From a virus: 26,077 nucleotides of DNA. The first letter of the stretch is position 1, and every line of letters starts with the position of its first letter. The notes under the pieces were generated by a model. That model worked only from the letters and a program-made list of their open reading frames with translations, did not search any database and had not been told where the DNA came from. Shown in pieces: positions 1,527 through 24,607 of this stretch. The DNA lies in the IMG/VR virus record IMGVR_UViG_3300027896_004357, positions 1-26,077 of that record. One strand, written 5' to 3'. Both the position numbers and the translations under genes were made by a program.

Positions 1527-3782
1527 TTAATCAACAAATCTTTTGGATGACATATTATTCTTTGCCATATCAACCATCAGATTTCTCAAATTCTCTACTC
1601 TTTTCGATAATTTTTTATTCGATTCAAGTATCCCATCAATCTTACCACTCATCTCGCGTTCTTTTCTCAAAGACCCTTCCGTAAACTCCTTATCAGAAAA
1701 AAGCAACTTACCATTCTTCCTTGAATACGACTCCCTTCTTACTCGCGGCCCTTTCTTTTCACCCTCCGAACCACCAGAGCCAATAGTACTAGAATCAACA
1801 CCGTACTTCTTATCAGTCTTATACTGCGTTTCCATCTGCTTTTCCATTATCTCATTTTCAACATCCGATTGATCCAACGTCTCCTTATCTTTCTGACCAA
1901 CAATCTCATTTATCTCTGAAGGAGTCAGTTTCAAAATGTGCTCCATTATCCATTGCCTTGAAAACATCTCTTGCATTTCATTAGCAAGTTGCACCCTTAA
2001 CTGCATAAGCTCAATATAAGCCGTCTCCATAACCTTAGTTGGTGCAGGCAAATAAACAGTATACCCAGCACTCTTTGGACTAATATTGTTAGCTGCAAGC
2101 TCTACATTACATAGCTGTCTAAGCCCACCCTTCATCATCTGCTGCAACCTCATTACAGTACGGGCATATCGAACATCCTCAGAAGCAAGAGAATATCTTG
2201 ATCCTATCAATTCGTCATACCCAAGATAGCTCTTAGGAATAGCCAATGCCGAAAACAGCTTTGACTGAAAATACTCAATATCATCTATTGAATTATAGTC
2301 AGGCCCCGCAAGAGCTTCAACCCTTGTTCTATCCTTTCCCTCACGGACAGGAAGGTAAATATCATCACTTTCGCTATTCTTCACAAATACACCAGAATCT
2401 TTATTAACATCACCATCTGAACCAACTGATAGCATTGCAAAGTTATGCAGCCCTTGCACATTCATACAATACATATCACAATTTTCAACAACCTCAATTC
2501 TTTTAACTTTTTGCTCGCACGCGATTTCATCTAACGTGGTGTTATATCCCATTAACAAGTCATTAGCTTTAAGAGAACCTGCTACTACCTCACTTCCATC
2601 ACTTAAAATAAATGGATGAATAGGATCAACGATATTATAGCTGTCATCACTATAAACAACCTTTATTGCCTTTCCAGAACCATCTGACTTTCCGCACCAT
2701 AAAACCTTACCCTGCGAAATTCTATTCTTACTATTCCTATCAACAGCATATACGAAATTGTCTTTTCCATCATCCCATTCTTTGGCAAGAGACTCTATTG
2801 TTATGTTTCTTCCATCAATCAGAGGTATTGAAGTGTTAAAAGCTATCGGCATTGGATTGAAACGCAAATCTATCTTTCCGTTCCTTGGATTAATAAACTT
2901 CGTTCTCTTCAACTTCTGCTTAACTTTTTCAATATATGCAAGTGCTTCTGTCGGAGGTAATGCACCAGTATCAAGATAATAAACATACCTGCTTGGAGCC
3001 TTTGTAAGCCTAAACAACAGTGTCGCATCTTCCATCAACACCAGACGTTTCCAACACCAACGGGCAGGCTCACCGTAACTATACCCATAAAATGCCCCTC
3101 TATTGCTTGATCTATTTCTCCAATGCACAACCTGCCAACCCTCAAATACCGCATTCATCTGACCCGTATAGGCACCAGCATCAACACCATTTAATCTCAC
3201 ATCCTTACCTTCTTGCTGATCCTTTATCTTCTTAAAAACCTGCTCTGCATTACTCGGACTCGCTGTTCCTGAAAAGTCACAGTAAAAAGCAGTATCGCCC
3301 TCCTTCTCTGCCCTTCTCATAATAACAGGAGGAAGATACACAATTCCTTTTATCCCATTTTCTCCAATGTCAATATACTCAAAATCATTTCCATACTTCA
3401 AAGCTGTGCGAACAATTTCCCAAATATTCTCGTCAATCTTTATCCTATTAAACATGTCCTCCAAAATAAACTCTGATCTCTTACTCTCTGCCTCTACCAT
3501 TACAGTTTTATTCTCTATATAATCAGTAATAGTGCAATCATCCGCAAGAACATTATATGCCGCCGCAATCGTTGAATAATTGTCCATGTCCTCATAATCA
3601 GCATATCTTGTCATCAAATCATCATCTATCTTTAATGCATGACCAACAGAAATCCCAAACACATCATTTGACCCAAACACTCCCGCCATTCCAGACATTT
3701 TAACAGGAGCCTTTGCCTTCTCTTCTATCCTATCCCCCCAAGAAGCACGAATTCTTTCTTTGATATTGCCAATAATACTCAT
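1527..3782 (-). CDS. Portal protein (T4 gp20-like) interrupted by a mini-intein
   Basis: This is the dodecameric vertex protein through which DNA is packaged and to which the tail attaches. The precursor is 751 residues; removing the intein (residues 314-469) leaves about 595, in the usual range for large phage portals. T4 gp20-like features include the DTGALPP...AYIEKVKQKLKR segment, then NPRNGKID and FNPMP before the intein, and DDIYLPVREGKD followed by SIDDIEYFQSKLF after it. The C-terminal tail is charged and helical. The ATG at 3782 overlaps the terminase stop as ATGA and has GGAG seven bases upstream, so terminase and portal are translationally coupled. The intein lies in a conserved core region, so splicing should be needed for a working portal. 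Confidence 0.9.
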   Translation of the reverse strand: MSIIGNIKERIRASWGDRIEEKAKAPVKMSGMAGVFGSNDVFGISVGHALKIDDDLMTRYADYEDMDNYSTIAAAYNVLADDCTITDYIENKTVMVEAESKRSEFILEDMFNRIKIDENIWEIVRTALKYGNDFEYIDIGENGIKGIVYLPPVIMRRAEKEGDTAFYCDFSGTASPSNAEQVFKKIKDQQEGKDVRLNGVDAGAYTGQMNAVFEGWQVVHWRNRSSNRGAFYGYSYGEPARWCWKRLVLMEDATLLFRLTKAPSRYVYYLDTGALPPTEALAYIEKVKQKLKRTKFINPRNGKIDLRFNPMPIAFNTSIPLIDGRNITIESLAKEWDDGKDNFVYAVDRNSKNRISQGKVLWCGKSDGSGKAIKVVYSDDSYNIVDPIHPFILSDGSEVVAGSLKANDLLMGYNTTLDEIACEQKVKRIEVVENCDMYCMNVQGLHNFAMLSVGSDGDVNKDSGVFVKNSESDDIYLPVREGKDRTRVEALAGPDYNSIDDIEYFQSKLFSALAIPKSYLGYDELIGSRYSLASEDVRYARTVMRLQQMMKGGLRQLCNVELAANNISPKSAGYTVYLPAPTKVMETAYIELMQLRVQLANEMQEMFSRQWIMEHILKLTPSEINEIVGQKDKETLDQSDVENEIMEKQMETQYKTDKKYGVDSSTIGSGGSEGEKKGPRVRRESYSRKNGKLLFSDKEFTEGSLRKEREMSGKIDGILESNKKLSKRVENLRNLMVDMAKNNMSSKRFVD
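2376..2843 (-). other. Mini-intein in the portal with Ala at position 1
   Basis: The 156-residue insertion (portal residues 314-469) has an intein layout: AFNTSIPLIDGR as block A, HPFILSDG in block B, MYCMNV...HNFAM in block F and GVFVKN just before Ser+1. It has no endonuclease domain. The splicing residues are unusual. Position 1 is Ala rather than Cys/Ser, the block B TxxH motif reads DPIH, and the penultimate residue is Lys instead of His. Block F carries Cys where Asp is usual (the D of the VYD motif). Ala1, block-F Cys and Ser+1 recall class 3 inteins, which use that Cys as nucleophile, but the class 3 Trp after the block B His is absent. Active class 3-like and degraded inteins both remain possible. 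Confidence 0.85.
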
Positions 3783-6700
3783 AAATAATCTCCGGGATAA
3801 ATAAGTTGCGACCCGACATCTCTTGCGTCCTCATCATCACTTATCAACATATCAAGCGGATCAGCCCTTCCAACAGAACTCTTCTTTATCACTTCTTGTA
3901 TCTTGCCCTTTATCGCGTCCTCATTAAAAGACTGGCTATACATAGAAATCGGCATCTCAGCATAAGAACTATTACTTAATGTATACACAACCCCAGCCAA
4001 AGAGTCGCTTACATCCTTTGATGAATCCTCTCTGTGATCCACCTTCTTTTTCCTTACGCTATACTCCAACTCCCTCAATTCTGTTATTACGGGATCGTAC
4101 CTATACATTCTCAACCTATTATCATACAAACAATCTTTCAACGTCTGGTATGGAATAACAGATAAATCCATACTAACATGCGCCGCCTTAAACCCTTTGC
4201 TACTCAAAATCTGTATAGGGTCTGCCTTAATATAACTATCCATCGACACAAATCCAATAGAAAACCCATGTTCATGAAATTCATAAACAAGATTTCTAAG
4301 CTCCGCTATCACTATTTCACCACCGGGAGGCGGTATAATCTTTAGCAAAAAATCTATCACAATAAATGGCGCACGTTCTACAGTCATCTCATTCATCACA
4401 TCACGCCTTCTCACATTAACATAACTTTCAATATGACCAACCGCGAACCCAGCACTATCCCCCGTCAAACTTGGGTCTATATGAATATGCCTAACTGCAT
4501 TCGGATTCTGCAATGGCTTAATAACACCATCAGTCTTCCTTACAAGCCTCTCCCACTGTATCTCAAGCGGCTCCCCAAACACCCACTGAACACTAACACA
4601 AGGATGCACTGCCGTCAAATCAATACATTCTTCTATCTTCTCACGCTTCCTGATAAAAGGATAAACTGACTCAGTTGCAACTCCCGCCAAATCCCTTAAA
4701 CTCTGGTCTAAATCTTTCTCAAAATCAGACTTGAAATCAACAGGAACATCTATTACCCTGCACTCTTTTTCTTTAGCCTCTACCAAGTCTTCGTCATACC
4801 TAACAATCCTCGATCCAAAATTTTCATTCCCAACAATAACTTTAAACCTCAATGCTCCTTCATATCTCTCAGGCTTTGCCTCCCACAACGATCTTTCTGA
4901 TACAAAAACATGTCTCTCATCACTTGCCTCTAAAATTCTTCTCTCGGTAAAATCTGAAACAGTACGCTTTGAAGAAATAAGCAACAGAATACCGGGCAAT
5001 CTTCCAAACATCTCAAATCGTGACTTAATCCTCCTCTTAATTGACGTATAGAGAATCTGTGCATTATCTATATGCTCCCATTTTTTATATCCTGATCTCT
5101 GCTCTTTGGACAATTCACCCATGAAATTAGTTTCATCAAGTATCGCTGCAATAACATTAAGACCAAGCACGGAATGAGGAGAACTTGAACTGCATGTAAC
5201 CCATATATTTTTCGGAAATCGCAACTCAGACTTTGTTCTCTCAGGGTTAAAATTCTTACTAAACCACGGACTCATTTTAATATTTTCACTTATCGCGTCA
5301 AATACTACTTTTTGAGCCAATTTCTCCGACACAGAGAAATTAACAAGAGCAATTGTACTCCCTGATCTTAACCCATACGTCCTCTGCGGATTTCTTAAAC
5401 AACCAATCTCATAAAGCTGCCTACATAACGAAATTTCTCCGAGAGTCGAATTATGAACAATAATCCCATTTGCAACAAAATTCCTATTTTTATTAACCTC
5501 TATATCGTATACTTTTCTCTTGCCAGCATCCTTAATACTAACTGCTTCATCCCAATAAATATCTCCCACTAACCACTTCCACTTATCACCAAGAGAAAGA
5601 GACTCGCACAACTTAGCAAAACCCTTTCTTCCATAATGCTGTCCCTTTGGAACTCTTATTTTATACCACACTTCCTTTGAAATACCTCCAACATCTTTTC
5701 TTATCTCCTTCATCTCTTCATATCCAACAGGAACTATATCAACATTAGTATTATGCTTAACAGAATTACACATTAACAATGCATCTTTACACTTTTCCTC
5801 TTTAGCACGTATAAATCCAATATTGTCAAAAAATGTCTTAACCTCTTCACCTAAAACATTCAACGTCCACGCATCAAACTTCTTCTCTTTTATCTTTTTA
5901 GGTGTAGAAGACTTCGCAGAATGAATACCAAATCTAAGCAGTAAAAACTGAATATCATCTATAAATTTTTCGCTTGCCAATGTTATAGAAACAGAGTACG
6001 GAGACTTACCAATCCATCCATCACATGCAAATAACCTATTAATAAATAAACCTAATTGCCTATCAGAAAGCCCATAAAAAATCGCCGGTATTCTTTTATT
6101 CTTCGATAAAACATTAAGTTCTTTGTACTTTCTCTTAATCCACTTACATCCTCTTGGATAATAAGTACCACGCTTTTTCTCAGATACTCCTGCTTTTCCT
6201 CTTTGATGCCACTTATCATTCTTTCTAAAATCAGCCAAAGAAGTCGCCACAAATCTAAACTCTTCGACTATACAATCATCAAAATTGGTGAAACCAAAAT
6301 TACCCGAAGTACATGCCCCCTCTGCAAGCATGTAAGCAACAAATACAACTTCAGCATCACTAATTTTTAACTCGTTTATTGGCCTTGGAACAAACCTTGG
6401 AGTAGCTATCAATTTACCACAACAACTACCTGCATCAACCCATCCGTTTCTTGTAAGAAGTGGATGGTTTGAGGTACAAATCAATCTCTTACCACTTCTT
6501 GTAACAATCTCTATACAACTCTTCTCGCCAGAAAAAACATGCCCTGTTGATATTGTCTTTTTCGATTCCCCAAATACACTGAATGACTGAATTATTGATC
6601 TATCACTTTTCCAGTCCTTTATTTCTACTCTTTTACCACTATTTATATCATAAATATCAGAATCTTCGCTTAAACATTTGCCCACGCCGATAGCCCCTGA

Positions 6701-7018
6701 CAAAATAACTTCGTTATAATCACCACTATGTATCTCCAAAAGGTCTTCCCTAATGGATTGCCATAATCCTTCGCATGGCCTACCAAAATAATAATCATCC
6801 TCCATCCACTGTTTCATTGGAACAGGTATTTCATCGTACTGCTCCTTCTCTCCAACATCTAACGCTACACTTCTTCCTTTTGACTCAAAATCTTCAAGAA
6901 TCTGAAGCAGGCATTCCCTCTCCCTTGGACTCATTTTCTCAAAATCAGTCCTCAAAATATCAATCACTTCATCGTCAGTTCTTTTAGTCCTGACTCTTTC
7001 CCCATCACTCAGAAGCAT
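3779..7018 (-). CDS. Terminase large subunit (packaging ATPase/nuclease) with an intein in the P-loop
   Basis: This is the motor ATPase and headful nuclease of DNA packaging. The precursor is 1079 residues; excising residues 115-523 gives about 670. The spliced ATPase site is GAIGVGK joined to STLG, a Walker A motif. Walker B is the ILDET stretch (Asp628, Glu629). The C-terminal RNase H-like nuclease shows HIDPSLTGDSAGFAVGH, a later MDSY motif and the family's final KDVSDSLAG motif. The ATG at 7018 overlaps the end of the upstream gene by 14 bases, and the stop overlaps the portal start. Without splicing the P-loop is broken, so packaging should depend on the intein. The ribosome site is weak, fitting coupled translation. 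Confidence 0.95.
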   Translation of the reverse strand: MLLSDGERVRTKRTDDEVIDILRTDFEKMSPRERECLLQILEDFESKGRSVALDVGEKEQYDEIPVPMKQWMEDDYYFGRPCEGLWQSIREDLLEIHSGDYNEVILSGAIGVGKCLSEDSDIYDINSGKRVEIKDWKSDRSIIQSFSVFGESKKTISTGHVFSGEKSCIEIVTRSGKRLICTSNHPLLTRNGWVDAGSCCGKLIATPRFVPRPINELKISDAEVVFVAYMLAEGACTSGNFGFTNFDDCIVEEFRFVATSLADFRKNDKWHQRGKAGVSEKKRGTYYPRGCKWIKRKYKELNVLSKNKRIPAIFYGLSDRQLGLFINRLFACDGWIGKSPYSVSITLASEKFIDDIQFLLLRFGIHSAKSSTPKKIKEKKFDAWTLNVLGEEVKTFFDNIGFIRAKEEKCKDALLMCNSVKHNTNVDIVPVGYEEMKEIRKDVGGISKEVWYKIRVPKGQHYGRKGFAKLCESLSLGDKWKWLVGDIYWDEAVSIKDAGKRKVYDIEVNKNRNFVANGIIVHNSTLGEISLCRQLYEIGCLRNPQRTYGLRSGSTIALVNFSVSEKLAQKVVFDAISENIKMSPWFSKNFNPERTKSELRFPKNIWVTCSSSSPHSVLGLNVIAAILDETNFMGELSKEQRSGYKKWEHIDNAQILYTSIKRRIKSRFEMFGRLPGILLLISSKRTVSDFTERRILEASDERHVFVSERSLWEAKPERYEGALRFKVIVGNENFGSRIVRYDEDLVEAKEKECRVIDVPVDFKSDFEKDLDQSLRDLAGVATESVYPFIRKREKIEECIDLTAVHPCVSVQWVFGEPLEIQWERLVRKTDGVIKPLQNPNAVRHIHIDPSLTGDSAGFAVGHIESYVNVRRRDVMNEMTVERAPFIVIDFLLKIIPPPGGEIVIAELRNLVYEFHEHGFSIGFVSMDSYIKADPIQILSSKGFKAAHVSMDLSVIPYQTLKDCLYDNRLRMYRYDPVITELRELEYSVRKKKVDHREDSSKDVSDSLAGVVYTLSNSSYAEMPISMYSQSFNEDAIKGKIQEVIKKSSVGRADPLDMLISDDEDARDVGSQLIYPGDYL
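5450..6676 (-). mobile_element. LAGLIDADG-type intein in the terminase Walker A motif
   Basis: The 409-residue intein begins with Cys115 right after GVGK and ends IIVHN at residue 523 before Ser+1. Splicing motifs look complete: Cys1, TSNH (TxxH, residues 182-185), VYDIEV...NRNF as block F, penultimate His and terminal Asn. The middle contains two LAGLIDADG-like helices, VFVAYMLAEGA (about 225-235) and GLFINRLFACDGW (about 323-335), so homing activity is plausible. The second motif and the LLLRFGI segment closely resemble the DnaB intein of this genome, suggesting common descent. Confidence 0.92.
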
Positions 7019-13431: not shown

Positions 13432-13747
13432 TATCGGTAATCTCCTTAAAATGACCCATCGACATTACAACCCAATCCTTCGCTGTAAAAACACCGACCG
13501 TGGGAAGCTCTATAAATAACAAAGGCAACTTCCCTTGGGAAACTGCCTCTTTCGTAATCTTATCGAGATATTCTGCCTTTATGCTTATGCTCTTTTTATC
13601 AGTTCTCTTGCATTCAATAACGTAATTTTCTCCAGACCCATCACCTTTTGCAAAAAAGAGAGCACCTGAAGCTGCATGTCTTTTACCACCTACAGAATCA
13701 GATGCTCTTGTTTCTTGCTTCTTTATTTTCAATCTAAACTTGCTCAT
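13418..13747 (-). CDS. Holliday junction resolvase-like nuclease
   Basis: The 109-residue protein resembles small PD-(D/E)XK resolvases of the archaeal/phage type. It has a basic N-terminus, GGKRHAASGALFFAKGDG, the E-x-K signature in YVIECKRTDKKSISI (Glu45, Lys47), and LDKITKEAVSQGKLPLLFIE, a typical helix-strand ending. Such enzymes cut four-way DNA junctions, which fits its place directly after RecA. The ATG at 13747 is preferred over an in-frame TTG at 13750; AGGCGG lies upstream. It has its own promoter past the RecA stop. A general PD-(D/E)XK nicking or restriction-type nuclease is an alternative. Confidence 0.75.
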   Translation of the reverse strand: MSKFRLKIKKQETRASDSVGGKRHAASGALFFAKGDGSGENYVIECKRTDKKSISIKAEYLDKITKEAVSQGKLPLLFIELPTVGVFTAKDWVVMSMGHFKEITDNGKK

Positions 13748-15435: not shown

Positions 15436-16248
15436 TTATTTTATCCATCCTTGTTCGATATAATATTTTTCTCTGCTTTTCCATCTTCTCATACATAATT
15501 CATCATTGGCATCTATAAATTCTACCACTATCGGCCTCTTCTTTGTATCGCATACCCTTAAAATACGCCCAACACTCTGAACCACATCTCCTTTAGGCGA
15601 AGCAAGATAAAGCGTATCCAAATCATGAATATCCAGCCCTTCGGCGGCCATACTGAATGTGGCAAAAATCACACTTGCCTTTGCTGCAACTCTAAGCTCT
15701 TCTTCTTTTCTCCCACCAACATAGAAATCAATACTTCTCGCCATTTTTCGTTCATTCAACAACTCGCCTAACTTTACAGAAAGAATATCTAAGTGATCCA
15801 ATCTATCACTTAAAATTAAACACTTTCTACTCTTCTCACACGCAAGGAATATCTCATTCACTATTAATCTATTACGCTCACCATTCTTACAAAGTATCGT
15901 AATCTTTCTTTCATCACTCGGCTTATAATCACCTTTTACAGACATCTTAAATGGCGCTGCTATTTTACGAATACCTACATCAATTTTATCCAAATGGCCT
16001 TTATAAATAACGTCACCAGTAGTATTAAAAAACACTCTCTCCGTACAATCCTTGCGACTTGGGGTAGCAGAAAGGCTAAGCCTGAATCTTGGATTGAATC
16101 TTGGCATTGCCTGTGAGAACGAAACGGCACTTGCGTGATGACAATTATGTACTAACCCACATGTCGTAAAAAAATTATGATTTTTTTCTACTTCTATATC
16201 AAAAACATTTTCTAGCTCCTGTACAACAGACTTTCTTACTATTTTCAT
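15436..16248 (-). CDS. C-terminal part of a split SF2 helicase, starting with a C-intein
   Basis: This 270-residue gene supplies the second half of the helicase encoded at 17174-18106. Residues 1-35 are a C-intein (VFDIEVEKNHNFF as block F, GLVHN at the end). From Cys36 the helicase resumes with CHHASAVSF, completing the DECH motif II with the other half. Motif III is SAT (60-62), and motif VI is QSVGRILRV near the C-terminus. Trans-splicing would give a helicase of about 448 residues, similar in plan to phage UvsW and other COG1061 enzymes that unwind branched DNA. The ATG at 16248 directly follows the endonuclease stop (TAAATG), with GGGGA eight bases upstream. Each half alone lacks motifs needed for activity. 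Confidence 0.92.
   Translation of the reverse strand: MKIVRKSVVQELENVFDIEVEKNHNFFTTCGLVHNCHHASAVSFSQAMPRFNPRFRLSLSATPSRKDCTERVFFNTTGDVIYKGHLDKIDVGIRKIAAPFKMSVKGDYKPSDERKITILCKNGERNRLIVNEIFLACEKSRKCLILSDRLDHLDILSVKLGELLNERKMARSIDFYVGGRKEEELRVAAKASVIFATFSMAAEGLDIHDLDTLYLASPKGDVVQSVGRILRVCDTKKRPIVVEFIDANDELCMRRWKSREKYYIEQGWIK
16144..16248 (-). other. C-terminal half of a split intein (35 residues)
   Basis: The segment has block F with the usual Asp (VFDIEV), the HNFF motif and block G GLVHN with penultimate His and terminal Asn. Cys follows as the +1 extein residue. Its length matches the 35-40 residues of natural C-inteins such as those of cyanobacterial DnaE. Its N-terminus is basic (MKIVRKS), opposite to the acidic end of the N-intein, as seen in natural split pairs that associate electrostatically. 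Confidence 0.9.
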
Positions 16249-17121
16249 TTAAGATTTCCCCAATTTATATGCCATTGAATCAAAAATATATGGCTTAACA
16301 ATATTAATTAATTTTCCGCTCTCCTCAACATTCATCCTTAAATACCAATATTTCCCTTTGGTAAAAGAAGGAATCGTCAAAATATCGAATTTTCTTTTTA
16401 TCATATCTGACATTAAAAACACTTCGTCTTTTTTATATCTCTCTGTATGAAAACTTGCACTTTTCTTAGAAATACTCCCATCATCCATATACCACCATGC
16501 CATCACCTTTTCATTTAACAAGTCATAAATATTTTCGCATATTATTTTTCTACTTCTTTTCTCTACCTTCTCATAAAAAATATTAAAATATTCTTTAAAT
16601 ACCGGACTACAACTAGTTGTCAGCCTTGAATTAAAATCACCATATCCACCATTTTCAACAATATTAATATTCGCACCAAATCTTTTTAATATTTTTTCTT
16701 TTTCTAAATTATATCTATGTTGAATATATCCATGATTTATCACCAATCTTGGGTAATCAGATGTTCCATGTGGATACTGAATACTTCCATCACCCAAACA
16801 ACTCCCAACAATTAAATCTCGCTCTTCGCCAGAAACAACAAAACCTACGTTAATTTTTCTATTGCTATGGCCTGGACAAAATCTAGAATATTTGTAATTT
16901 TTAATTCTTCCTTTTAAAATAACATGCTCAACAACACCAATTTTTTCCCCACACCCACATTCACAAAACGGTGCATTTCTTTTAAATTCTTCTACTCTTT
17001 TTAATCTCTCATCATAACCTACAACTCTACTACTATGCCCTCTTGTATACTCTATTAATTTACCATTAACAAACTTGTTTTCTTCAACCAACTTTTCACA
17101 TCCACACTTACAAAACTTCAT
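16249..17121 (-). CDS. Freestanding LAGLIDADG homing endonuclease between the split-intein halves
   Basis: The 290-residue protein has two LAGLIDADG motifs of the kind found in intron-type endonucleases: DLIVGSCLGDGSIQ (about 103-116) and VMAWWYMDDGSIS (about 208-220), both keeping the catalytic acid. Its N-terminus has two copies of an FCxCGC...GH unit (FCKCGCEKLV...RGHSSR and FCECGCGEKI...PGHSNR), probably zinc-binding DNA-contact modules. It likely cuts helicase genes lacking the split intein so that the whole cassette is copied in by repair. The ATG at 17121 has GGAGG six bases upstream, but both are buried in a hairpin (17115-17174). Its stop TAA directly abuts, in frame, the start of the C-intein gene. 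Confidence 0.9.
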   Translation of the reverse strand: MKFCKCGCEKLVEENKFVNGKLIEYTRGHSSRVVGYDERLKRVEEFKRNAPFCECGCGEKIGVVEHVILKGRIKNYKYSRFCPGHSNRKINVGFVVSGEERDLIVGSCLGDGSIQYPHGTSDYPRLVINHGYIQHRYNLEKEKILKRFGANINIVENGGYGDFNSRLTTSCSPVFKEYFNIFYEKVEKRSRKIICENIYDLLNEKVMAWWYMDDGSISKKSASFHTERYKKDEVFLMSDMIKRKFDILTIPSFTKGKYWYLRMNVEESGKLINIVKPYIFDSMAYKLGKS

Positions 17122-17174
17122 TGCGTACCTCCATTGTATTTATTTATAAATATAATGGATACGTGCAATGAAGT
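17115..17174 (-). promoter_or_regulatory. RNA hairpin hiding the endonuclease ribosome site, with a late-type promoter in its loop
   Basis: On the minus strand ACTTCATTGC (17174-17165) pairs perfectly with GCAATGAAGT (17124-17115), which contains the endonuclease ATG. Inside, GTA/TAC and TCCATT/AATGGA extend the stem, the latter covering part of the SD GGAGG. The 18-base loop contains TATAAATA (17148-17141), identical to the T4 late promoter -10 element. The predicted start about six bases downstream would give a transcript lacking the 5' arm, freeing the ribosome site. T4 endonuclease genes are known to use this arrangement. The 5' arm begins at the last base of the N-intein stop codon, so terminating ribosomes could also open it. 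Confidence 0.75.
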
Positions 17175-18106
17175 CAATAAATATCGTCGCTTTCATTAAG
17201 ATTTATTGCCTCCACCCAGCCTCTATTTAATGTAAAAAACATGTGTTCTGGGGTACACCTTATAATATGTCCATCCTCCACTTCTATCTCTATTACCTCT
17301 CTTATCCCTTTTCTATAAACATTAACAACTGGCATATACTCTTTTTTGCCACTTACCTCATTAAAACTCAATACATCAATAGTTTCTCCATTCTCAAATT
17401 TCTCAACTATTTTACCAATATATTCAATTCCTTTATTTGTCATAACTTTTGCGTCATAAGCAAGACACTCGTCCACCCCAACTAACCCAAACCTATCATA
17501 TATCTCACCATATTCCCTTGACGCAAGAGAGTGAATCATACCTATTACAATTTCCTTATCATCAACATCACAAACATCTTGCTGTATTCTACCTATTCTT
17601 GCTCTCGGTAAAAACTCCTTAATCCTATTGCTCCACTGATTAACTAAAAACTCCTTATGCACAATAACAAGCGTTTTTAATTTTAATTCACTTACAGCCT
17701 TCAAAAAAATTGTTGTTTTCCCGGCTCCACATGGCAGTGAGATTATTCCACCATAAAAATCATCCCTATCAATCTTGCTGACAAAAGAATTAAATGGTGC
17801 TATCTGACCTTCTCTTAACTCGCCCTTAAATCCTAGCATATCACCATCTATAGCATCACCGTAAGAAACATCAATTTTTAAATCCAACTCTTCTTTCTTA
17901 GGCATTGTCTTCAAAAAGAAAAAAAGAGGAACCCCAAAAAGATTCCTCCTTTTATCCTCTACATACGTTATAATCACAGAAGGCTCCGAATGTATTGACG
18001 TTGCTCTTTGCTTGATAGTCAATACTCTTCTCAAAATATCAAGTTTCTCTGGACTAACATCATCCATGTTAATCCATGCCATATTACTTATTGTTACTCT
18101 TATCAT
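17174..18106 (-). CDS. N-terminal part of a split SF2 helicase, ending with an N-intein
   Basis: The first 213 residues are the front of an SF2 helicase: an N-terminal accessory domain, the LREGQIAPFNSFV Q-like segment, Walker A SLPCGAGKTT (123-132), motif Ia-type TLVIVHKEFLVNQW, and motif II cut after VGVDE (209-213). Residues 214-310 are an N-intein, after which the gene stops. The rest of motif II (CHH) is encoded at 16143 and below, beyond an endonuclease gene. Fusion by trans-splicing restores DECHH. The ATG at 18106 overlaps the upstream stop as TGATG, so translation is coupled. This is a genuine split rather than a frameshift: a full N-intein ends in a stop, and the second half has its own start and C-intein. 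Confidence 0.93.
   Translation of the reverse strand: MIRVTISNMAWINMDDVSPEKLDILRRVLTIKQRATSIHSEPSVIITYVEDKRRNLFGVPLFFFLKTMPKKEELDLKIDVSYGDAIDGDMLGFKGELREGQIAPFNSFVSKIDRDDFYGGIISLPCGAGKTTIFLKAVSELKLKTLVIVHKEFLVNQWSNRIKEFLPRARIGRIQQDVCDVDDKEIVIGMIHSLASREYGEIYDRFGLVGVDECLAYDAKVMTNKGIEYIGKIVEKFENGETIDVLSFNEVSGKKEYMPVVNVYRKGIREVIEIEVEDGHIIRCTPEHMFFTLNRGWVEAINLNESDDIY
17177..17467 (-). other. N-terminal half of a split intein (97 residues)
   Basis: It begins with Cys214 after VGVDE. Block A-type residues CLAYDAKVMTNKG follow, then the TPEH motif (TxxH) in block B and RGWVEAINL before the end. The length fits natural N-inteins (about 100 residues). It ends in an acidic tail (NESDDIY) complementary to the basic start of the C-intein. 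Cys1, the TxxH motif and the partner's HN-Cys+1 together make splicing plausible. Confidence 0.92.
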
Positions 18107-18726
18107 CAGTACGGAACTGCCTCTGTGTCATGTTCAGAATCCTTCGCCTTTGCAACTATTATTTTCAGCCTGTCAGCCTGCTCAGGCTTCAGTATTTCCT
18201 CATATTGATATGGTGAAATATCAACTGACGGAAACTGCTTAATCAGTTCAACCTTTTCAACAAAATCAAAATCATCTCCAACCGCCGAAGACTTTGCCGA
18301 AGCCCCTCGCGTCACGTCAAAGATACAACCTGTCAACCCACCATGCTTCTCGTCCTTTCTTGACAACTTCTCAAGAATAGGTATCTTTGCAGGAAACAAC
18401 AATTTCTCGTTTACATGCTTAACACCCTTCTTATCTGTATACCCCGTCATATCAAGAATCGTATAAAACCCAACATAGTACGGTCTGTTATCACTTGAAC
18501 ATAAAGCACATTCCTCCCCAAGATTCTCTCTTAAACATACAAACCAGTTCTTCCACGACCCATCAATACATACGTTATGCTCCCAGAATCTAAATGCAAA
18601 ATTATCAAGAAAACAAACCTTACGACTATCTCCTTGCTTAAGCCAAAATCTTTTAACAATCTCCTTCTTTGAGGAATGATCCATGTCATCTCTCAACCCT
18701 TCAGTACCTTTCTTATACCATGTCAT
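18106..18726 (-). CDS. Zinc-ribbon phage protein, probable ssDNA-binding protein
   Basis: The 206-residue protein opens MTWYKKGTEG, continues with FWLKQGDSRKVCFLD, NVCIDGSWKNWFVCLRE and a CALC pair, then PYYVGFYTILDMTGYTD and KLLFPAKIPILEKL. The layout, an OB-like barrel with a Cys pair and aromatic strands (Phe/Trp/Tyr), fits phage ssDNA-binding proteins of the gp32-like kind, and I recall similar phage proteins carrying that label. The acidic C-terminal region would also fit. It is coupled to the split helicase (TGATG). The ATG at 18726 has AAGGAGG six bases upstream. The family assignment is from memory of its pattern, not from an alignment. Confidence 0.6.
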   Translation of the reverse strand: MTWYKKGTEGLRDDMDHSSKKEIVKRFWLKQGDSRKVCFLDNFAFRFWEHNVCIDGSWKNWFVCLRENLGEECALCSSDNRPYYVGFYTILDMTGYTDKKGVKHVNEKLLFPAKIPILEKLSRKDEKHGGLTGCIFDVTRGASAKSSAVGDDFDFVEKVELIKQFPSVDISPYQYEEILKPEQADRLKIIVAKAKDSEHDTEAVPY

Positions 18727-19400: not shown

Positions 19401-20756
19401 TTATTGTTTCCAAATTAGGCTTCCAGAACTATATATTCTCTCTACATTTTTTGAAGGTACAACCCTCTTACTTCCATATTTACAAAAGCAATAAATATTC
19501 ACACCTCTATTTGCAATACCTCCGCATAAATATCTTTTACCTTTTATCCAAACAAAATCTCTATTCTGTATCTTATGTCTTTTTCTACGAATTGATGGAA
19601 TAAAACCCTTTCTATTCAATTGCAACTTTCTGTTATTTCTTCTCTTCTGCTCAATATCAATTGAATCAACTCTCTTCTGACCAACACCACCAGCTATGAC
19701 AAAAGCATCATTATAATGCGTTTTTTCTAATCTCTGCTTATTTCTGTTTGCATTTGTTATATAACCATAAGTAAACTCAAAATCTAAAATCTCTTTGAAT
19801 CTTTTACCAATAATCGACATAAACGTCTCTGTTTTATATTGCTTTGATTTCTTTAGTTTACTAAATAACTTTTCTTCATGCAATCTTTTATGGCAAGATT
19901 TGTGTAATAAAGCAATGTTTGAAGGCTTGTCAGTACCGCCGTCTTTTCTTGATATAACGTGATGAAGGTGTCCACTATTCTCTTTTGTCATTTCTTTGCC
20001 ACATAACTGACACTTATTCTTTTCTCTACTTGTTATAAAACTTCTTAAATTATAATACCCTAACAAATCCCCTTCTTGATATTCCTTACCTGCTATTTCT
20101 GGATTTTCTATCTTCTGAATATCGAAATTACCTACTTCAATTGTTACTTTACTTATCGGTAAAAATTTCTTTAAAGTATTAATCAAAGTTAAATGTGTAT
20201 CAAACTTTCTCTGTATTGAAGGTGGTAAATAACCAACATCCTTCTTTCTATTACTAAAACGTGGCTTTCTATACCTAAGCCTTCTTCTTCTACTTCTTCT
20301 ATACATTCCCTTTTCTATCAATCTTTCAGATGTTTTCTGATCTAAAATAAGTGTTCCTGAAATTAATTCTTTCTTATCAGTTATCACTGAAAAACCCATA
20401 TTCTTAAAACCAGAGTCTATTCCCAATGAACAGCATTGAACCTGATTCTCACACTCAAAATTCAACTTGATTACAAATGGATTCTGCTTTACAACATGAG
20501 CTTTTCCTCCTTCTAAAAGATGTCTCGCCTTTGCACTTGTACAAGGCATTAATGGTTTCCCTGTTACTGATAATACAAACAAAATGCTTTTAAAGCCGGG
20601 TGTTTGTTCCCGTTGATTCACTTCGGGATTGTTACAATCCAGTACTTTATCTTGTACACTGTCGCTTTCGCTCCTGTTTAATACAAGATTTGTAGAGCTA
20701 CAGACTAGTGAAGTATCCGTAGGTACGTTCTTTAACTCTAATTGTAACGTCTGCAT
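19401..20756 (-). CDS. iscB: IscB RNA-guided nuclease (RuvC + HNH)
   Basis: IscB is the ancestor-type relative of Cas9 that uses an omegaRNA to cut DNA. All parts are visible. There is the PLMP domain (GKPLMPCTSAKARHLLEGGK, from 66) and RuvC-I with Asp114 (SLGIDSGFKNMG). The Arg-rich bridge helix follows (RRSRRRRLRYRKPR, 153-166), then RuvC-II Glu207 (VTIEVGNFD). HNH has zinc Cys249/252, His265-His266, Asn280 and His289. RuvC-III has His347 and Asp350 (THYNDAF). Catalytic residues are intact. The ORF runs from ATG 20756, but the first ~57 residues are unlike IscB and coincide with the omegaRNA; the real start may be TTG at 20582. No tnpA is nearby. Confidence 0.93.
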   Translation of the reverse strand: MQTLQLELKNVPTDTSLVCSSTNLVLNRSESDSVQDKVLDCNNPEVNQREQTPGFKSILFVLSVTGKPLMPCTSAKARHLLEGGKAHVVKQNPFVIKLNFECENQVQCCSLGIDSGFKNMGFSVITDKKELISGTLILDQKTSERLIEKGMYRRSRRRRLRYRKPRFSNRKKDVGYLPPSIQRKFDTHLTLINTLKKFLPISKVTIEVGNFDIQKIENPEIAGKEYQEGDLLGYYNLRSFITSREKNKCQLCGKEMTKENSGHLHHVISRKDGGTDKPSNIALLHKSCHKRLHEEKLFSKLKKSKQYKTETFMSIIGKRFKEILDFEFTYGYITNANRNKQRLEKTHYNDAFVIAGGVGQKRVDSIDIEQKRRNNRKLQLNRKGFIPSIRRKRHKIQNRDFVWIKGKRYLCGGIANRGVNIYCFCKYGSKRVVPSKNVERIYSSGSLIWKQ

Positions 20757-20800
20757 AGTTTAACTAAGCTCCCTAGTCTCCAATAATATCATTTTAAAAT
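20585..20800 (-). ncRNA. Candidate omegaRNA (HEARO-type) of IscB
   Basis: IscB loci carry a structured RNA just upstream of and overlapping the ORF start; this region has the expected density of pairing on the minus strand. Examples: AGACTAG (20779-20773) with CTAGTCT (20708-20702), and GAGCT (20771-20767) with AGCTC (20699-20695). GTTACAAT (20748-20741) can pair with ATTGTAAC (20638-20631). CTTGTA/TACAAG encloses a GCGAAAGC hairpin. GGATTG-TAA-CAATCC lies at 20640-20626. CCCG/CGGG and a competing GGG/CCC pair follow near 20628-20597. Several pairings are mutually exclusive, as in pseudoknotted omegaRNAs. The guide would lie at the 5' end, around 20790-20820. Both ends are approximate. Confidence 0.65.
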
Positions 20801-21843: not shown

Positions 21844-22118
21844 TTCTTCCTTTGCTTCAACACCTTGTTCCACAAACTCTCAAAATGATCTATTACAGCC
21901 TTAACCTCTTTTTCTCCTATTAACTTTTTATCATACAATCTTATCACCCTATCTATTATCCCGTCAACAAAACCATCACCTGTCATTTCATGTATCTCTC
22001 TCATAAATCCTGTTTTTGTCCCAAAATCAATCCTATCACTATTCTCATAATAAACAACAGATATTCTCATTATAGCATCACTCAAATATTTAATCGGAAA
22101 CTCATCAAGTCTTCCCAT
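21840..22118 (-). CDS. Small unrecognised protein between helicase and primase
   Basis: No family is recognised. The 92-residue protein is mostly helical, with a hydrophobic heptad-like first half and a basic C-terminus ending KVLKQRKK. The ATG at 22118 shares TAATG with the helicase stop and has GAGGTG eight bases upstream. Its stop overlaps the primase ATG. Tight coupling on both sides suggests a replication accessory protein made in step with helicase and primase, by position only. Confidence 0.75.
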   Translation of the reverse strand: MGRLDEFPIKYLSDAIMRISVVYYENSDRIDFGTKTGFMREIHEMTGDGFVDGIIDRVIRLYDKKLIGEKEVKAVIDHFESLWNKVLKQRKK

Positions 22119-24607
22119 TAAAAAGGCACCTCATCTTCATCAAAGGTTTTAACAATAACTTCGCTAAAATCAACATTCTCAAAATCCCACTTCAATATCA
22201 TCTTCTCCATAACATCACCTTCTCTAACCTTAATGGACTGAATGTTCATTATCTTATCAGCCCTCATATCAACGTCCTGAACCATTACAAACACATAATC
22301 CGAATCCATTAAAAAAGCATCCGTAAAAGAAAGCATATCATCTCTTACATCTTTCTTTCCAGAAGCCTTTCTATTTAATTGTGACGCACCCACAAATGGT
22401 ATCGAATACTTTTTACTAAACCCTTTCAACGAATCAACAACATGAGCAATTCTATCATGCTTCTCAAGGCGTGTATTTCCCCTCTCCATCAAATACACAC
22501 CATCAACAAAGACTATTTCAGGCTCCGTCACTATTATCGCCTTTTCAAGAGCGGCAAGAGATGAACCAAAATCCTTCCCGATTATTTTAAATCTTCCATC
22601 ATCATCCTTAAGCAATCTGTCAACCATGTCTCTCATCTTGCTCTCCATCATACTACCCAGCTTACCCCTACGCATCGACTCATAATTTGCTCTCACATGA
22701 TTAGAAAGAAATCTTGCCAAAATTCTTGAATTCGACAATTCGGGAGAAACAAATAATACTTTCTTCTTGTCAACCTCCCATGCATGTTTCGCAAGCAATA
22801 TTAAACACCACGAATTATGAACAACAATATCATTTGCTATAAAATTATGCGTATCCTCTATTTCAAGATCATATACCTCTTTTTCTCCAACTTCATATAT
22901 GTTGACAATTTCATCAAACACAATCTCTTCTTCAGACATTCTTCTAAAATCTTCTATACCAGTTATATCAAAAAAACTTTTCGCTCTCTCTCTACTTATT
23001 CCATGTGATACATTTTTCTCATTTCTAAAAATATCGTATGTTCCAGTTATCCCCAAACTCTTTGCAATTTCTCTTGACCTAACATTTAATTCATCACTAA
23101 CAAAAAACATGTCAAAATTAGAATTTCTCTTTACCTCACATGATAAATTTAATTTGTCAGATTTCTCTCTTATAACAAAACCTATTCTATCCTTAAAAAT
23201 AGACACATTGCTACCAAAAATATCTACTATATAAGACCCACTAAAATCATTTCTTTTAAATCTTATTTTTGCAACTATACCAAATCTCAACAATAAAGAA
23301 TAAACATCATTCGCAAGTCTCTTAGAAACAGAACAATATCCCACACACCCATTTTTATCAATCCATCCGTCACAACTAAATAAAACCGACAAAAAATAGG
23401 CAACATTATCATCATTCATTTCAAACACTTCTTTTGGAATAAACTTATCATGAGATAATTTTCCAAGTAATCCATAACTACTAATTAATTTAACCGCATC
23501 ATTTGACTCATATCTTTTTAACTTCCTTGACGTAACAAAAGTATAATTAAGACTACTTCCTCTCTCCTTAACAACACAATCAAGTCTCTTTGCCGCCTCT
23601 TTCATAATATCCAATATTTCACTACTTCCGGTACTGAACGAAACCTCTCTACTACCACACTTTCTTATTCTCGTATGACCCTCTGCTATAATAACAGCAA
23701 GCATTCCTATAAAATCGCCATTCTCACTCGAAACACCATTTGCTCTAATTATTCTTGGAATAGCTATTCTATCACCAATCTTTAACCCATCATCAATTTT
23801 CATCCATTTCCTATGATACTCAAAAAATGGGTGACAAGACGTAACATCAATACATCTTCCTGTCCTTGTTATAACTCTAAAACATTTTTTAACACCAGAA
23901 TTAATCCATGCAACAACATTCCTGTATACAATCTTACCACTCTTTTCATTATAAGATGGTATCTCTCTCTCCCTAATATTACAAAATTCTTTTATGGTAA
24001 TTCTTCTTCCATTCTTACACTGAACAATAGAATCCCAAGACACACACTTCCCCAAACCAGACCTTGCAACAAACATCGCCAAATCTTCTGGTTGCCAACC
24101 CCCGGTCGTATCATTCAATGTTTTCCAAGGTGTCGATATTCCAGACAATCCTTCCTTTGCCCTCTCGTATGACTTCCATACATCTTCACCATAAGAAAAC
24201 AAACTCTTTATTTCTTCAGGTGAAGTAAGCCCCCTACTTATCTCTTTAATACCATCATTCATTTTTTCGAGTGCTTCTATACCCTTGCCCCTATCCATCA
24301 ATGGATATATCTCACCCAGCTTAATCGTCATCTTATTATAAACATCACGATTAATTATCTCACTCGAATAAAATCCAACTTCAGCGTCACATTCAACAAA
24401 AAAACTTGCGGAAAAAGCATCCTCTAAAATACTAAATGTGGGTATCTTTCTATACTTTCCAAAATAATCTATACAAAAACGATAGGCCCCTCTTTCCGGC
24501 TCCTTAATCATCTCAGGTGCAATAGATGTAATACACTCGGCAAACACCTTAACATCTGCTACCTCTATCAACTTACTAAGAAAAAACTTATCAATCGAAA
24601 CCGTCAT
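22118..24607 (-). CDS. DnaB-like replicative helicase interrupted by an intein in Walker A
   Basis: The hexameric replicative helicase. The precursor is 829 residues, about 418 after excision of residues 188-598. N-terminal helical domain (1-130), then STPWKTLNDTTGGWQPEDLAMFVARSGLGK, the RecA-like core with Walker A split by the intein; the other half is SWCLILLAKHAW. Walker B is EIVFVDGVYLM (697-707). GASQLNRK (740-747) matches the conserved DnaB motif with Gln and Arg. The last residues are acidic (DEDEVPF). It is preceded by its likely loader with a six-base gap. The ATG at 24607 has AGGATAGGG upstream. Since the P-loop is broken, splicing is required for unwinding. Confidence 0.93.
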   Translation of the reverse strand: MTVSIDKFFLSKLIEVADVKVFAECITSIAPEMIKEPERGAYRFCIDYFGKYRKIPTFSILEDAFSASFFVECDAEVGFYSSEIINRDVYNKMTIKLGEIYPLMDRGKGIEALEKMNDGIKEISRGLTSPEEIKSLFSYGEDVWKSYERAKEGLSGISTPWKTLNDTTGGWQPEDLAMFVARSGLGKCVSWDSIVQCKNGRRITIKEFCNIREREIPSYNEKSGKIVYRNVVAWINSGVKKCFRVITRTGRCIDVTSCHPFFEYHRKWMKIDDGLKIGDRIAIPRIIRANGVSSENGDFIGMLAVIIAEGHTRIRKCGSREVSFSTGSSEILDIMKEAAKRLDCVVKERGSSLNYTFVTSRKLKRYESNDAVKLISSYGLLGKLSHDKFIPKEVFEMNDDNVAYFLSVLFSCDGWIDKNGCVGYCSVSKRLANDVYSLLLRFGIVAKIRFKRNDFSGSYIVDIFGSNVSIFKDRIGFVIREKSDKLNLSCEVKRNSNFDMFFVSDELNVRSREIAKSLGITGTYDIFRNEKNVSHGISRERAKSFFDITGIEDFRRMSEEEIVFDEIVNIYEVGEKEVYDLEIEDTHNFIANDIVVHNSWCLILLAKHAWEVDKKKVLFVSPELSNSRILARFLSNHVRANYESMRRGKLGSMMESKMRDMVDRLLKDDDGRFKIIGKDFGSSLAALEKAIIVTEPEIVFVDGVYLMERGNTRLEKHDRIAHVVDSLKGFSKKYSIPFVGASQLNRKASGKKDVRDDMLSFTDAFLMDSDYVFVMVQDVDMRADKIMNIQSIKVREGDVMEKMILKWDFENVDFSEVIVKTFDEDEVPF
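22814..24046 (-). mobile_element. LAGLIDADG-type intein in the DnaB-like helicase P-loop
   Basis: The 411-residue intein runs from Cys188 (after SGLGK) to Asn598 (IVVHN) with Ser+1. Splicing residues look complete: Cys1, TSCH in block B, VYDLEI...THNF in block F, and HN at the end. The endonuclease region has IGMLAVIIAEGH (about 300-311) and AYFLSVLFSCDGW (about 403-415) as LAGLIDADG helices. It shares layout, size and segments (CDGWI, LLLRFGI) with the terminase intein, consistent with paralogous inteins targeting two P-loops. Confidence 0.93.

Follow-up and report, generated by a model that had tools for sequence, protein, structure and literature searches.

A split intein predicted to interrupt the DECH box of a UvsW-like viral helicase, with a LAGLIDADG endonuclease gene and a start-site hairpin between the gene halves

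Introduction

Phage genes fractured at a split intein were reportedly described by Dassa and coworkers in 2009, with the host gene in two cistrons and an endonuclease gene between them, and the title of that report is said to name a new endonuclease family. The locus analyzed in this work resembles those genes in that the host gene is contiguous in its relatives and an endonuclease gene lies between the halves. It differs from them in its endonuclease, which is of the LAGLIDADG_2 (I-SceI-like) type and not of the family named in the 2009 title, in its host gene, which encodes a UvsW-like DExH helicase and is broken within Walker B, and in a hairpin over the endonuclease start. As a kind, genes fractured by split inteins have been known since 2009, as the citation in PMC7090010 indicates. 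How split inteins originate from contiguous ones is an open question.

Two further systems are relevant for comparison. The ShiLan element is a hidden HNH endonuclease in a phage methylase for which neither an intein nor an intron was found (PMC11855218); it is like the nested endonucleases reported below in occupying another frame of a host ORF, and unlike them in being an HNH enzyme without an intein (PMC11855218). In T4-like phages, hairpins hide the start sites of I-TevI, I-TevII, I-TevIII, segB and mobE, and in phage T4 the hairpin of I-TevI is arranged together with a late promoter (PMC2988022).

Results

The window, that is, the whole stretch of 26,077 bases that was analyzed (positions 1-26,077 of IMG/VR virus record IMGVR_UViG_3300027896_004357; 36% G+C), carries genes for a T4-like portal, a UvsX-like recombinase, a DnaB-like helicase, a primase and a DnaC-like loader. 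Three consecutive genes on its minus strand make up the locus: an N-half (17174-18106), an endonuclease gene (16249-17121) and a C-half (15436-16248). The N-half encodes a helicase N-extein of 213 aa ending in ...FGLVGVDE (17468-18106), with motif I CGAGKT and the first half of motif II, and a 97-aa N-intein, CLAYD...DDIY (17177-17467), with Cys1 and block B CTPEH, followed by a TGA stop (17174-17176). The C-half starts at its own ATG with a 35-aa C-intein, MKIVRKS...GLVHN (16144-16248), in which block F reads VFDIEVEKNHNFF, and continues as a C-extein of 235 aa that begins CHHAS (15439-16143) and holds motif III SATP and motif VI QSVGRILR, with the stop at 15436-15438. Between them lies a gene for a 290-aa homing endonuclease with two LAGLIDADG motifs, which matches LAGLIDADG_2 (PF03161) with an E-value of 2.1e-22. 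A preliminary description, made from the letters of the window, had given the same anatomy, including a LAGLIDADG gene between the halves; it was exact, ORFs and coordinates agree, and the PF03161 match bears out the identity of the middle gene.

In Pfam searches the N-half matched ResIII (1.3e-15) and Intein_splicing (1.4e-9), and the C-half gave weak matches (0.001-0.004) to the tail of Intein_splicing, to ResIII and to Helicase_C (0.004). The motifs CGAGKT, DECH (once joined), SATP and QSVGRILR are those of an SF2 DExH helicase of the UvsW/COG1061-like type. The endonuclease gene ends directly before the ATG of the C-half, the two genes being in the same frame (TAA|ATG), and the 52 nt between the N-half and the endonuclease gene are filled by an inverted repeat. 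No Rfam match pointed to an RNA intron at the locus. Across the 309 codons that separate the N-half stop from the C-half start, 44 stops lie in the frame of the N-half and 25 in the third frame, and the endonuclease frame alone is open. These counts bear on the extremely improbable reading that the locus is a contiguous intein, with its endonuclease in or out of frame, disrupted by a sequencing or assembly error. Such inteins do exist, as L041, L042 and L046 are contiguous at DE|C with the endonuclease in the -1 frame. Nevertheless, since the N-half frame carries 44 stops ahead of the C-half, the locus is not an assembly slip: rejoining the halves would need many changes and not one, the number of stops is that of neutral expectation, which is not so in contiguous alleles, and the counts already refute an error unless the whole stretch is chimeric.

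All the residues of a class-1 splicing reaction are present, namely (i) Cys1 at VGVDE|CLAYD, (ii) the TxxH of block B in CTPEH, and (iii) His, Asn and Cys+1 at GLVHN|C. The two intein parts are separate ORFs that end at the usual intein split point and, when joined, match the PDB inteins NrdJ-1 (1.6e-14), DnaE and gp41-1. Together with the Intein_splicing profile match, this upholds the split intein proposed in the preliminary description, and protein trans-splicing would be the most likely means of uniting the two halves. Helicase relatives were searched with the joined extein, which found four, and with an alignment of those four, which found further ones. Intact full-length relatives (36-41% identity) align to the joined extein without a gap at the junction, and their motif II reads DEAH, DEVH, DETH or DECH with no insertion (L007, L008, L011, L012, L014, L016, L017 and L027 are uninterrupted there; L014 reads DECH). 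This comparison, which had been suggested beforehand, places the break inside motif II as claimed, with the relatives reading straight through DE|xH; that no active helicase would exist without trans-splicing is sound as reasoning from that position.

The same observations weigh on the possibility that the locus is decaying, with the middle of the intein lost, the helicase dead and the two halves mere relics. Phage genes do decay, and the helicase is perhaps dispensable; against this, no splicing residue or helicase motif is damaged, the three reading frames are intact, both halves possess a start codon and break off where inteins are usually split, and other phages retain the same arrangement, which makes decay very unlikely. 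No DNA-level relatives were found in phage records, and this exact locus was seen in one contig only, with no close allele to gauge selection on it.

The endonuclease scores 80.3 bits against LAGLIDADG_2, for which the curated score is 25. Its two motifs are LIVGSCLGDGS and VMAWWYMDDGS, in which both D are invariant in alignment A4, and its N-terminus carries two CxCGC knuckles. An AlphaFold model built with 18 sequences has a pLDDT of 86, and its best PDB matches are I-WcaI (TM 0.76) and I-SceI (TM 0.73). In a single-sequence search of viral contigs the CxCGC knuckles alone were matched, without close relatives. This endonuclease might be no more than a freestanding gene that came to lie between the halves and plays no part in mobilizing the split intein. 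Its own start site and hairpin, like those of freestanding phage endonuclease genes, would suit such an origin, as would the finding of its N-terminal CxCGC knuckles elsewhere among phage genes, including an HNH-like one. However, its full-length relatives (residues 4-287) sit in inteins at DE|C, in helicases and dnaX, and since they do, the endonuclease belongs to that site; a freestanding origin is thus unlikely. The DNA around the insertion has GAYGAR|TGYCAY, or nearly, in common between helicases and dnaX, and these shared codons are also expected from the shared DECH residues.

The gap ahead of the endonuclease gene forms a near-palindromic hairpin on the minus strand (17115-17174), with arms of 29 nt (17146-17174 and 17115-17143) that are 79% complementary. 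Its 5' arm begins at the N-half stop, and its 3' arm pairs the endonuclease ATG and part of the GGAGG at 17128-17132. The predicted fold has -32.8 kcal/mol in a 101-nt stretch (z -6.1), and the 65-nt core has the lowest energy among 3065 low-GC 65-nt segments of the minus strand. The preliminary description had not mentioned this inverted repeat. From this pairing, the hairpin likely sequesters the endonuclease start site, just as the hairpins of I-TevI, segB and mobE conceal where translation of those phage homing endonucleases starts (PMC2988022); it probably differs from the I-TevI type in lacking a T4-type late promoter. A promoter of that type, acting with the hairpin as for I-TevI, was convincing at first, as TATAAATA, the T4 late promoter box, occurs exactly in the hairpin loop, 8 nt upstream of the Shine-Dalgarno sequence, in the I-TevI arrangement (PMC2988022). 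It was dropped, and we now regard it as quite unlikely: TATAAATA is either missing from seven related contigs (~838 kb) or occurs in them at control level, for which reason no late promoter is claimed; within the window it was not found upstream of other minus-strand genes; and the box belongs to an AT-rich palindrome. A sigma-70-like match, TTGACT-17-TATATT (17149-17177, minus strand; 10/12 positions), lies over the 5' arm and the loop, in a region where such matches show no excess over chance. The idea that the hairpin travels with the endonuclease was likewise discarded, as L033 and L035 have no comparable start-site hairpin. L034 has a GC-rich structure nearby whose pairing differs from that of the window.

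Other relatives of the helicase carry inteins at other motifs, so that this helicase is an intein hot spot and the site in the window is one of at least three. Contiguous inteins occur at motif I in L009, L010, L020, L022 and L023, and L029/L030 have a second intein just before SATP in addition to a contiguous, endonuclease-free mini-intein of 145 aa exactly at DE|C. Contiguous inteins with the endonuclease nested in the -1 frame were found at DE|C in L041, L042 and L046 (UvsW-like as in the window) and in Xanthomonas phage FoX3. Split inteins at DE|C were found in L033, L035, L037, L047 and L049. The phage records nearest in endonuclease include Pectobacterium phages Amona, Ymer, Koroua, Abuela and Sabo and Escherichia phages AN_ECEAS and ES; Amona (L033) and AN_ECEAS (L035) were analyzed in full, and Ymer, Koroua, Abuela and Sabo are near-identical to Amona. 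In Amona and AN_ECEAS, a split intein interrupts a helicase of another family at the same DE|C codon and the endonuclease gene overlaps the ends of both halves, an arrangement shared by viral contigs L047 and L049. The UvsW-like helicase of Yersinia phage fHe-Yen9-02 (L037) is likewise split at this codon, and its splicing domain is the nearest to that of the window (41%); unlike in the window, the gene between its halves lies on the other strand and does not belong to LAGLIDADG, showing a weak match to DUF7487 and a nuclease-like motif at its C-terminus.

The nested form was also found in 46 cyanobacterial loci, in dnaX, at VYVIDE|CHML; the dnaX identity was established in L060 by matches to DNA_pol3_delta2 and DNA_pol3_gamma3. 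Counting four phage helicases together with the 46 dnaX loci of cyanobacteria, the same endonuclease family thus occupies the same Walker-B DE|C codon, out of frame, with an identical frame offset in 50/50; the terminase L044/L045 shows the other offset. No relatives of the nested endonuclease were found on plasmids. Production of the out-of-frame endonuclease by programmed frameshifting is not favoured, because most cyanobacterial copies share the start MDTSK, or a similar one, at the same place. Endonuclease frames are broken or shortened in 6/46 of the cyanobacterial loci and the intein frames are open, the pattern expected if a homing gene decays and splicing must go on.

Dual coding was assessed by shuffling the synonymous codons of the endonuclease and counting the stops that fall in the frame of the intein. 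Ten nested loci had 0 stops where 2-10 were predicted, a result reached in 0-7% of the shuffles for each. In the five split loci the observed and predicted counts were close: 24 and 25.1 in the window, 13 and 12.1 in L033, 10 and 11.9 in L035, 11 and 11.9 in L047, and 17 and 18.9 in L049. The two non-endonuclease frames of the window gave 24 vs 25.1 and 42 vs 45.8. These comparisons with the shuffles indicate selection on the intein frame where it runs across the endonuclease in unbroken alleles, and freedom from it in split ones.

In a 40-row tree, the nested alleles and four split alleles of the Pectobacterium/Escherichia type formed one group (99/94) in which the split alleles were next to FoX3 (97/89), with the window just outside. 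In a 30-row tree the window moved and lay on a long branch, so that the position of its endonuclease is unstable. A single clade of all split alleles was not favoured by the trees and not rejected either (AU p 0.19). Taken together, the two trees support one fracture or more out of a nested ancestor, a conclusion that does not extend to the direction of change in the window. The proximity of the fHe-Yen9-02 splicing domain hints at an exchange of endonucleases between split alleles. The joining of the splicing domains of the window and fHe-Yen9-02 is one of two long branches.

Discussion

We interpret the locus, with a probability of about 0.92, as a split class-1 intein in a UvsW/COG1061-like helicase, with trans-splicing, endonuclease homing and a hairpin at the endonuclease start. 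The intein interrupts the helicase exactly between the DE of Walker B and the Cys of the DECH box, and two polypeptides would be made whose 97-aa and 35-aa intein parts would associate and form the Hint fold; trans-splicing would then join VGVDE to CHHAS and yield a helicase of 448 aa. The separately translated I-SceI-like endonuclease most likely cuts intein-less helicase genes at motif II, with the core GAYGAR|TGYCAY, and repair would then copy the whole three-gene block. The hairpin probably restrains endonuclease translation from read-through operon mRNA; its release by the ribosome terminating on the N-half, or by an internal promoter, is guesswork. The sequence and the models made from it show directly the architecture of the genes, the catalytic residues, the precise position of the junction, the lack of a continuous frame, the predicted endonuclease fold and how stable the hairpin is, whereas splicing, cleavage, homing and regulation are inferred.

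The preliminary description had suggested that this might be a new example of a fractured gene. The combination of a UvsW/COG1061-like helicase with a LAGLIDADG partner stands, although the kind was already known and the Pectobacterium and Escherichia phages share the architecture and the codon in another helicase family. Amona and AN_ECEAS are alike to the window in their split intein at a helicase DE|C and in the LAGLIDADG_2 gene with the CxCGC motif between the halves; apart from the helicase family, they are unlike it in that the endonuclease overlaps both halves in the -1 frame, the N and C parts are still in one frame and no strong hairpin covers the endonuclease start. L041, L042, L046, FoX3 and the cyanobacterial DnaX loci share the endonuclease family and the codon context with the window and differ from it by one continuous intein frame with the endonuclease nested at -1. 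Searches of full texts outside the subscription literature, to which the first DnaX intein reports belong, turned up no account of an intein with an out-of-frame endonuclease in it; the nearest case was the hidden HNH gene of the ShiLan element. As far as we searched, the hairpin over the endonuclease start of a fractured gene is new, and so is the out-of-frame LAGLIDADG_2 gene in unbroken DE|C inteins of helicases and dnaX.

It is tempting to speculate that one endonuclease lineage, specific for GAYGAR|TGYCAY, spread out of frame in inteins between unrelated ATPase genes (phage helicase families and cyanobacterial dnaX) and that, on resolution of the overlap, the intein broke and a natural split intein resulted, with the window and the Pectobacterium and Escherichia phages as end states. 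We hold this tentatively, at somewhat under even odds. The shortness of the core could explain how the endonuclease passed between genes otherwise unrelated. At one and the same codon, the alleles form a series of empty site, mini-intein, nested endonuclease, overlapping split and full separation; if the proposed succession is true, it offers a concrete and testable route from contiguous to split inteins. The dnaX cases also raise the prospect that a mobile endonuclease may sit unannotated in a core replication gene of many cyanobacteria, and the split intein pair of the window is a candidate for protein ligation. As for the surroundings of the locus, the gene upstream of it (phrog_17226, function unknown; 18106-18726, minus strand) overlaps the N-half ATG with its stop by 1 nt, and L009 and L010 likewise have a gene similar to it in sequence ahead of the helicase.

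Inteins in related helicases, in cyanobacterial dnaX and in other phage genes

In the phage helicases of the related loci L034 (1761-4298), L041, L042 and L046, a contiguous intein occupies the DE|C site within motif II, and an endonuclease gene is nested inside it in the -1 frame. The helicase of L029/L030 (2454-5642) carries two contiguous inteins, of which the one at DE|C has 145 aa and the other, which is large, precedes SATP (motif III); motif I inteins were found in the helicases of L009, L010, L020, L022 and L023. A helicase split at DE|C is present in Yersinia phage fHe-Yen9-02 (L037, 1769-4866); the halves of this UvsW-like protein are separated by an antisense gene, which has a weak match to DUF7487 and a nuclease-like C-terminal motif.

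Nesting was also found in 46 cyanobacterial dnaX loci (L057-L101 and L103), where a contiguous DnaX intein inserted at VYVIDE|CHML holds a LAGLIDADG_2 endonuclease gene in the -1 frame, with a conserved start near MDTSK. The nested gene is broken or short in six of the 46, in which the intein frame is still open.

Other phage genes are interrupted as well. The terminase large subunit of L044/L045 (2570-5848) has an intein-like insert following IDE|S, with a nested LAGLIDADG gene in the +1 frame, that is, at a separate offset. The PolB gene of L002 (3142-8216) contains a contiguous first intein and a split second one at YGD, the N-half of the latter being fused to a Vsr/DUF559-like nuclease domain. 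In Klebsiella phage KP13-7 (L038), a split intein breaks the ribonucleotide reductase gene nrdA, and the gene separating the halves resembles GIY-YIG.

Other features of the window

Besides the helicase split intein, three more inteins lie within the same 26 kb. Those of the DnaB helicase (22118-24607) and the terminase (3779-7018) are contiguous, with LAGLIDADG_3 in frame and insertion after GK of Walker A, and the portal protein (1527-3782) has a divergent mini-intein, seemingly ending KN|S.

An IscB-like ORF (RRXRR and HNH) spans 19401-20778, with a HEARO/omega-RNA match at 20612-20778 on the (-) strand (score 82 bits, cut-off 83; E 4.8e-16). Together the two make up an OMEGA-like system, here carried by a phage contig.

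A terminator-like stem of 15 pairs with a T run (17921-17953, (-) strand) lies inside the coding sequence for the N-half of the helicase. Other strong hairpins of the coding (-) strand, at 13653-13722 and 88-172, rank among the most stable 65-nt windows.
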